Of a stretch of 64,000 bases of DNA, positions 29,760-33,721 are shown one piece after another. Each line of letters starts with the position of its first letter. Position 1 is the first letter of the stretch. The position numbers and the translations under genes were made by a program. The DNA is from Dehalococcoidia bacterium (GTDB lineage Bacteria > Chloroflexota > Dehalococcoidia > Tepidiformales > Tepidiformaceae). The notes beneath the pieces were generated by a model that worked only from the letters and a program-made list of their open reading frames with translations, did not search any database and was not told the origin of the DNA. The stretch spans positions 1 to 64,000 of the forward strand of contig JADZEI010000021.1 in the NCBI GenBank assembly GCA_020850615.1, given 5' to 3'.

Positions 29760-29864
29760 GAACTCCCCTCTGCTGCTGTGTGAATTGGATTCGGGCGCCC
29801 CTCAGCTCACCGGGACGCCGGGTTCAATCGATACGGGCGGAACGCCACGAAAGCGAGGCCGGGC

Positions 29865-29962
29865 TCCCTCTCCCCCCGGGAGAGGGCTGGGGTGAGGGTC
29901 GCCCCTGGCCATCGCGGTCGCCGCGCCCTCACCCCTGGGCCCTCTCCCGGGGGGAGAGGGGA
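29865..29962. repeat. inverted pair of GC-rich hairpin repeats
   Basis: Two copies of the CCCTCTCC/GGGAGAGGG hairpin element face each other: GGGAGAGGGCTGGGGTGAGG on one side and CCCTCACCCCTGGGCCCTCT on the other. The whole block could fold into one long stem. It lies in the 240-base gap between the starts and ends of coaE and the ThDP lyase. The same element occurs at 9964-10004 and 13738-13775. Confidence 0.75.
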
Positions 29963-32502: not shown

Positions 32503-33138
32503 GTGTTCCACTTCAGCACTACCTGGCGGATCGGCGCAGTCGCGCTGTTGCTCATGCCCGCGGCGATCGCCTGCGGCAACGACGATGCCCCATTGCGCTC
32601 GTGGGAGCTGCGCCAGCTCGAAGAGATGGCGGCGATGACGCCCTGCGCGCCGGTCGACAGCAGCGGCACCATCCTGCCGGACCCGGGCGACGACGTCGCA
32701 GGCGAAGCGTACCCGGCGCTGGAAGGCGGGTCGGTGGACGCGTCGGTCGACCTCGAGCCGTTCCCGGGGAGCGAGCTGGTCGACGGGTTCGAGAAGGATG
32801 ACGTTGGCCCTGGCACCGACCGCGGGCGGGTCCAGGTCTGGGCGGTCGAAGCACCGCTCCAGGACGTCCTCGACCACTACGCCGCGCAGTTCCTCGAGAT
32901 GGGGTGGGCGATGACGGGGATGGGCTACGGGGTGACGGGCATCGCCTGCACGTACGTCCCGTTCCGGCAGCGCCAGGCGCTCGGCGGCCCGGACGACTGG
33001 GCCATCATCGGCAACGAGTACATCCCGCGCGAAGACGTGGACTCCGAGGATGTCCCGCCCGGGTCCCGAGACAAGGGCGTGCCCTTCGCGCCGCGGATCC
33101 CCGGTAAAACCGTGTACTACCTCATCACGCCGGACTGA
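32503..33138 (+). CDS. lipoprotein of unknown function
   Basis: A 211-residue protein with a signal peptide ending in the lipobox AAIAC (Cys24), then a domain of about 180 residues. The segment DASVDLEPFPGSELVDGFEKDD and LQDVLDHYAAQFLEMGWAMTG resemble small lipoproteins of other genomes that measure a difference between two quantities, but I cannot name a family. The GTG start is preceded by GGAGGGAG. Its end overlaps the convergent HTH gene by 22 bases. Confidence 0.7.
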   Translation: MFHFSTTWRIGAVALLLMPAAIACGNDDAPLRSWELRQLEEMAAMTPCAPVDSSGTILPDPGDDVAGEAYPALEGGSVDASVDLEPFPGSELVDGFEKDDVGPGTDRGRVQVWAVEAPLQDVLDHYAAQFLEMGWAMTGMGYGVTGIACTYVPFRQRQALGGPDDWAIIGNEYIPREDVDSEDVPPGSRDKGVPFAPRIPGKTVYYLITPD

Positions 33139-33476
33139 GCTGGCCCAGGCGCGGGCACGAGCTCGGCGTCCGCCTCCGTGACCGGGGCGTCGGCCGCGCT
33201 GTCCGGCTGGGCGGCCTTGCGGCGCGGTTTGCGCGGAGCTGGCTGGCCCGTCGCGGGCCCGAAGCGCTGCTGGGCGCCCTGCTTGGACATGCCGTAGAGC
33301 GCGCCGACCTGGGACCAGGAGAACCCGGCTTTCCGCGCCGCCTCGACGCGGTCTTGCTCCAGCGCCTCGGCGGTTTCCCGGAGCCGGCGGGCGGCGTCGA
33401 CTGCCTCCAGGCCTGCAGACGCCAGCTCCAGCGCCATGAGCTCTTCGCGCAGCTGCCGGAGGTGACGTTTCGCCAT
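33117..33476 (-). CDS. small helix-turn-helix protein beside operator array
   Basis: The 119-residue protein has a helical N terminus (LRQLREELMALELASAGLEA, VDAARRLRETAEALEQDRVE), then a helix-turn-helix, AARKAGFSWSQVGALYGMSKQGAQQRFG at about 46-73, and a basic then acidic tail. The WSQVGALYGMSKQGAQQRF part resembles sigma region 4-like DNA readers common in actinobacteria. It has no Shine-Dalgarno; TACTCT ends seven bases before the ATG and TTGACG lies 16 bases further up, a near-consensus promoter overlapped by the first palindrome. It is therefore a plausible regulator of itself and of the micropeptide. Confidence 0.75.
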   Translation of the reverse strand: MAKRHLRQLREELMALELASAGLEAVDAARRLRETAEALEQDRVEAARKAGFSWSQVGALYGMSKQGAQQRFGPATGQPAPRKPRRKAAQPDSAADAPVTEADAELVPAPGPAQSGVMR

Positions 33477-33483
33477 GCCAGAC

Positions 33484-33511
33484 AGAGTACCGGCCGCCGC
33501 CCGGCCGTCAA
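33484..33511 (-). promoter_or_regulatory. promoter of the HTH gene, overlapped by operator 1
   Basis: On the minus strand TTGACG (33511-33506) and TACTCT (33489-33484) are 16 bases apart. The start point falls at or next to the ATG at 33476, so the mRNA would be leaderless. The -35 box is one arm of the first palindrome. Confidence 0.65.
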
Positions 33512-33593
33512 TCGGCCGTTGACCGAATCGTCAATGATCAGTTGACTTCTTCGTCAACATATGGTTGACTGACATCGTCAACTCACGGTTGAC
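33507..33593. promoter_or_regulatory. four tandem palindromic operators GTCAA-N6-GTTGAC
   Basis: Four 17-bp sites at 33507-33523, 33530-33546, 33553-33569 and 33577-33593 each read GTCAA, six variable bases, then GTTGAC. The arms GTCAA and TTGAC are exact inverted repeats in all four, while the middles differ. Centre spacing is 23, 23 and 24 bases, close to two helical turns, so bound proteins would line up on one face. The array sits between the minus-strand HTH gene and the plus-strand micropeptide. Confidence 0.85.
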
Positions 33594-33624
33594 CGCCGGA
33601 AGCGGCCGAGAGGAGGTGATGTTC

Positions 33625-33666
33625 GTGAGCAAGAAGAAGGACAAGAAAAAGGGCAAGAAGAAGTAG
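33625..33666 (+). CDS. 13-residue Lys-rich micropeptide
   Basis: A tiny ORF reads MSKKKDKKKGKKK from a GTG, or MFVSKKK... from an ATG six bases upstream. It is preceded by AGGAGGTGAT, an almost perfect match to the anti-Shine-Dalgarno of 16S rRNA, eight bases before the GTG. A strong terminator hairpin begins 30 bases after the TAG. Nine of thirteen residues are lysine, so it could bind nucleic acid or the ribosome; no known family is claimed. The strong signals and isolation between an operator array and a terminator argue that it is a real unit. Confidence 0.6.
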   Translation: MSKKKDKKKGKKK

Positions 33667-33696
33667 CCCGGGCCGCCGGAAAGACGACCGAAAAAC

Positions 33697-33721
33697 GCCC
33701 GCCGGGGAGTCCCCGGCGGGC
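33697..33721. terminator. terminator after the micropeptide
   Basis: An 11-bp perfect stem, GCCCGCCGGGG with CCCCGGCGGGC around AGT, is preceded by AAAAA and followed by ATTTCATT. It can serve the plus-strand micropeptide and the convergent enoyl-CoA hydratase gene. Confidence 0.85.

Follow-up and report, generated by a model that had tools for sequence, protein, structure and literature searches.

A probable self-controlled unit of a small helix-turn-helix gene, a ClpC2-type operator array and a lysine-rich micropeptide gene

Introduction

A contig of a Dehalococcoidia bacterium carries four closely spaced palindromes between a small helix-turn-helix (HTH) gene and a very short lysine-rich open reading frame. 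Which protein reads such an array, and which genes does it control? The first-pass annotation of this DNA, a stretch of 64,000 nucleotides referred to below as the window, proposed a self-regulating switch that also controls the micropeptide.

Two mycobacterial proteins bear on this question. ClpC2 (Rv2667), a stress protein, was found by EMSA and reporter experiments to repress its own gene through CGTCAAC-n5-GTTGACG (Taylor et al. 2023, PMC10030653). This operator overlaps the -35/-10 region, and the clpC2 mRNA is predicted to be leaderless (PMC10030653). The DNA contacts of ClpC2 were placed at R185 and R189 in its C-terminal domain, and the text uses neither HTH nor helix-turn as a term (Taylor et al., PMC10030653). 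RelI is a bona fide antitoxin of the RelS-RelI pair (Rv2664-Rv2663); no inverted repeat was reported upstream of relS-relI (PMC13284704).

Results

The exact site GTCAA-N7-TTGAC occurs four times in the window, in palindromes 1 (GTCAATCGGCCGTTGAC, 33507-33523), 2 (GTCAATGATCAGTTGAC, 33530-33546), 3 (GTCAACATATGGTTGAC, 33553-33569) and 4 (GTCAACTCACGGTTGAC, 33577-33593), listed without strand and spaced by 23, 23 and 24 bp. A G stands directly 5' of TTGAC in all four, and both the GTTGAC arm and the spacings given in the first-pass annotation proved exact. By chance 0.01 such sites are expected in the window, against four observed, and no shuffled sequence reached four. The rest of the 4.17-Mb genome holds one further exact site, which is solitary, and among 197 genomes of the same class a multi-site array with this type of spacing was found only in the window genome. 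The half-sites alternate at steps of 11-12 bp, so that the array can also be read as eight phased half-sites rather than as four isolated operators.

The HTH gene (33117-33476, minus strand) encodes a protein of 119 amino acids with a ClpC2/RelI-type HTH and the recognition helix SKQGAQQRF. Its -10 element TACTCT (33484-33489, minus strand) and -35 element TTGACG (33506-33511, minus strand) are separated by a spacer of 16 nt. The -35 element is the outer half-site of palindrome 1; the overlap noted at first reading is thus borne out, with TTGACG at 33511-33506 sitting inside the palindrome. The mRNA is predicted to be leaderless, since only 7 nt lie between the end of the -10 element and the ATG. 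A TANNNT sequence ending 6-7 nt upstream of the start codon of the HTH gene was found in 13 of 14 family loci, compared to 0.6% in the background, and also in 5 additional loci. In the AlphaFold2 model the protein has helices at residues 2-18, 22-49, 54-60 and 65-72, the last of which is the recognition helix (codons 33261-33284, minus strand). A sensor domain is absent: a ClpC2-type protein gives a Clp_N match at E 7.6e-28, while the window protein gives none. Pfam and NCBIfam searches returned no significant family for the HTH protein, and a Foldseek search of this small helical protein against the PDB gave no informative match. A convergent ORF (32503-33138) without Pfam match adjoins the 3' end of the gene. 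The window genome contains one homologue of the window HTH at E 1e-6, and among 37 genomes of the same family none was found at E 1e-3. Because the HTH is rare near home and the multi-site array is unique among the 197 class genomes, the unit was probably acquired horizontally. A sample covering the phylum Actinomycetota had no genome in common with the class of the window, which is therefore probably not actinobacterial; its gene content hints tentatively at Chloroflexota.

The micropeptide gene (MSKKKDKKKGKKK, 33625-33666 including the stop codon, plus strand) is divergent from the HTH gene and encodes a lysine-rich peptide of 13 amino acids. It has a GTG start, with an in-frame ATG at 33619, and is preceded by the Shine-Dalgarno sequence GAGGAGGT (33610-33617, plus strand). 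An intrinsic terminator with 11 all-GC pairs follows (33697-33721, plus strand); to this strong hairpin in the window corresponds a stable predicted fold 3' of the gene in the relatives tested. A convincing sigma-70 promoter for the micropeptide gene was not found in the window. Across loci the last half-site lies 17-64 nt from the start codon, so the promoter is most likely located in or beside the array; a candidate -10-like TATGTT is present within palindrome 1 of several relatives. The genomic neighbours differ between loci and are often convergent with the micropeptide gene, as is the downstream gene in the window.

Sixteen loci, one of them the window, keep the lysine-rich pattern, Shine-Dalgarno sequence, start codon and open frame, over lengths of 13-85 codons. 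Family members have 13-36 amino acids and a net charge of +8 to +16, most of them with hardly any alanine. The exception is L228 (ORF start at 1834 of the locus, plus strand), which encodes 85 amino acids with 42% lysine, 24% alanine and APKKVAAKK repeats, presumably resembling a histone H1 tail. Its location in the micropeptide position suggests a series running from micropeptide to H1-like protein. Lysine is encoded by AAG 181 times and by AAA 5 times, a preference that is expected where genomes are GC-rich. No family match was obtained for the micropeptide in Pfam and NCBIfam, and literature searches for lysine-rich micropeptides yielded nothing relevant. The micropeptide is probably a low-complexity, histone-H1-like polycation, and the H1-like look of the 85-residue version suggests that it binds nucleic acid or another polyanion.

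Conservation of the unit was analyzed along two routes. GTDB contigs were scanned for two tandem palindromes, and the matches listed were mostly from Actinomycetota. Among these matches two spacing classes were distinguished: a commoner class of 28-29 bp, located upstream of larger genes, and a rarer class of 21-26 bp, which includes loci with an HTH gene, an array and a divergent lysine-rich micropeptide. Window-like loci were present in Tessaracoccus lapidicaptus (L075), Trujillonella endophytica (L115), a Streptosporangiaceae MAG (L026), an Actinomycetota MAG (L079) and genome G427 (L164); having been found through the motif, these five are no independent evidence for it. The 28-29-bp actinobacterial pairs were considered as members of the HTH-micropeptide unit and rejected, as they belong at least partly to ClpC2-type genes.

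The second, unbiased route used a profile of seven HTH sequences (A1) and no DNA motif. It yielded twelve further close relatives whose flanks could be read (L198-L203, L205, L223, L224, L226, L227 and L228); L225, cut at a contig end, was left out. All twelve have at least one exact palindrome upstream of the HTH gene, and ten have the divergent lysine-rich gene. The expectation of the first-pass annotation that the array accompanies the HTH gene in relatives therefore held in profile-only searches. L200 and L202, like L121, have the array and lack the peptide. Counting the window, the complete unit is present in 16 loci. In 1.23 Mb of scanned sequence, with some redundancy, lysine-rich micro-ORFs with a Shine-Dalgarno sequence occurred only at 32-71 bp from arrays, apart from one in L020 that is a lysine-rich fragment within a longer gene. 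The HTH proteins of the unit, including that of the window, form one clade (support 99/96), of which the inner branching is weak because of the few alignment columns. Many unrelated bacteria share this arrangement; the unit is real, conserved and portable.

Several lines of evidence indicate what reads the site. The window palindrome matches the ClpC2 operator, and a profile of the window HTH matched RelI (9sdc) at E 2.9e-11 and the ClpC2 N-terminal domain (8ada) at E 6.2e-5. The protein shares the four-helix HTH homology and the [KR]QxAxxRF recognition helix of the ClpC2/RelI-type superfamily, and its gene has GTCAA-N6/7-TTGAC upstream, as does that of ClpC2. Such a site was found within 260 bp upstream of 39 of the 51 profile-found superfamily genes, whereas 9,824 control windows taken from these loci contained none. 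The C-terminal parts in the superfamily vary (Clp_N, DUF3887, other, or none). Since the HTH is the element shared while the C-terminal domains differ, it is the likely reader of the palindrome. Among relatives of RelI, L204 (a DUF3887-fused HTH), L173 and L187 are preceded by the GTCAA/TTGAC operator or by its central pair. In Erythrobacter (L020, 6006-6069) the gene for a 187-aa HTH protein is immediately preceded by three palindromes at intervals of 25 and 22 bp; this locus being alphaproteobacterial, the operator extends past Actinomycetota and the phylum of the window.

The C-terminal domain of ClpC2 that bears R185 and R189 is absent from the window HTH protein. The published ClpC2 crystal constructs cover residues 4-72 and 94-252 (PMC10030653). 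The 8ada chain ends with ...SDIGKSMGV, just short of where TKQAAQKRF lies in the close ClpC2 relative L176. The window unit suggests that ClpC2 reads DNA via its N-terminal HTH, with the predicted recognition helix outside both constructs. With the HTH shared and the predicted recognition helix in neither construct, the assignment of the DNA contacts to R185 and R189 may be incomplete.

Repeats of related or other kinds were noted elsewhere. A Bacteroidota contig (Tannerella MAG, L111) has four GTCAA-N7-TTGAC palindromes at 369-454 with exact 23-bp spacing and near-identical centres; no HTH relative was recognised. Four viral contigs have similar arrays, and no HTH relative was recognised on them. 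In L150, L151 and L153 of these, dense GTCAA/TTGAC repeats lie inside coding sequence resembling phage replication genes and look like iterons within an origin. A phage or plasmid origin of the unit was rejected: tblastn against phages and plasmids gave weak partial HTH matches only, and a viral profile scan gave none. Genome G131, of the class of the window, contains the same 26-bp sequence GTCAATTATATATTGACTTAAGTCAA three times (C1:241539, 263581 and 811309; L139, L143 and L145), perhaps as part of a mobile element. At 29800-29960 of the window, translations in several frames such as PHPSPLPGGEG and LTPGPSPGGRGE suggest an extragenic REP-like repeat.

Discussion

The reading that we consider probable is that of a self-contained repressor unit, in which a shared array lets a sensor-less HTH protein repress both its leaderless gene and the divergent micropeptide gene. 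The array and its conserved surroundings, the homologies, the promoter pattern of a leaderless gene and the terminator are observed; that the protein binds and represses, that it controls the peptide gene and what the peptide does are what we infer, as follows. The ClpC2/RelI-type HTH protein would bind the GTCAA-N7-TTGAC palindromes as dimers. As palindrome 1 provides the -35 element through its outer half-site, occupancy of the array should shut the HTH gene, and the protein would thus be an autorepressor. Coverage of the array would also keep expression of the micropeptide gene low, which is divergent and has its own terminator, and the phased half-sites would accommodate several dimers next to each other, giving a steep response. 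The micropeptide would be a translated polycation that binds nucleic acid or another polyanion. That the arrangement recurs, and that its site is the operator bound by ClpC2, makes a real, portable, self-controlled switch very likely. Of the switch proposed in the first-pass annotation, self-regulation is supported by the array kept in twelve of twelve relatives and by the ClpC2 operator match; control of the micropeptide is deduced from geometry, as no clear promoter was identified in the window. Its remark that no such system had been described stands in part: the unit appears undescribed, but operator and autorepression have a precedent in ClpC2. Regulator type and operator are known, while the architecture and the micropeptide family appear to be new. 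A tentative extension, to which we give a low probability, is that the unit represents a new class of minimal regulatory modules. The micropeptide would then act as the signal: by binding acidic helices of the sensor-less HTH protein or competing for DNA it would reset the array, in place of the ligand-binding Clp domain that ClpC2 has, and the H1-like versions would act on the nucleoid as well.

Other explanations can be weighed against this repressor unit. A toxin-antitoxin-like module, in which the micropeptide is a cationic toxin both neutralised and repressed by the HTH protein, would agree with the relation to the antitoxin RelI (PMC13284704), with a small gene pair sharing autoregulatory DNA and with neighbours that vary by locus, as for a portable unit. 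We regard it as unlikely: the two genes diverge, each with a promoter of its own, instead of forming an operon, the peptide lacks similarity to RelS-type toxins as well as any family match, and the array persists without the peptide in L121, L200 and L202. It is more improbable that the short terminated RNA is the product and the ORF spurious. The transcript is short and terminated, the ORF is of low complexity and its promoter was not found, but a good Shine-Dalgarno sequence, start and open frame with a lysine-rich pattern are kept across the 16 loci. Slightly less credible again is a reading of the array by another cellular regulator than the adjacent HTH protein. Palindromic operators are used by many families and HTH binding is predicted here; against this, the genome has a single HTH homologue at E 1e-6 and just one additional exact site, and across phyla the motif goes with this HTH superfamily irrespective of the C-terminal domain.

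The lysine-rich ORF might also be the leader peptide of an attenuator sensing lysine supply, as a terminator hairpin comes right after its run of lysine codons. This role is strongly disfavoured, and we give it very little weight, because the downstream gene is not conserved and is often convergent, in the window as in several relatives; moreover, the ORF is always paired with the HTH gene and the array. That the array is a coincidental repeat without function has a negligible probability and was rejected on the expectation of 0.01 in the window and on the conservation in relatives. The self-contained repressor unit is therefore the reading that we retain.

The analysis ties one searchable operator to a large, mostly unnamed HTH superfamily. 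As any genome can be searched for the operator, regulons of this superfamily become predictable. ClpC2 sponges the antitubercular compound cyclomarin, and the data suggest its N-terminal HTH as its DNA reader. In addition, a conserved family of near-poly-lysine micropeptides emerges, each with its own repressor, which gene callers easily miss.

Comparison with known systems

In composition L228 is similar to histone H1-like and HupB-tail lysine-alanine proteins, which we take to be its nearest likeness, whereas most of the micropeptides are short, alanine-poor and without family match. RelI and the window protein share the HTH, and both are small and stand alone. However, RelI lies outside the clade of window-type HTHs and is operonic with a RelE-like toxin, while the partner of the window HTH is a divergent 13-aa lysine-rich peptide and no RelE-like toxin gene. 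ClpC2 carries a C-terminal ClpC1-NTD-like domain binding cyclomarin, which the window HTH lacks; its sites are 28-29 bp apart, compared to 21-26 bp in the window-type unit, and unlike in that unit no lysine-rich peptide partner was found beside the fetched ClpC2-type loci. Common to ClpC2 and the window are the homologous HTH, the same operator (often in tandem in ClpC2), its overlap with the -35/-10 region and a leaderless gene.
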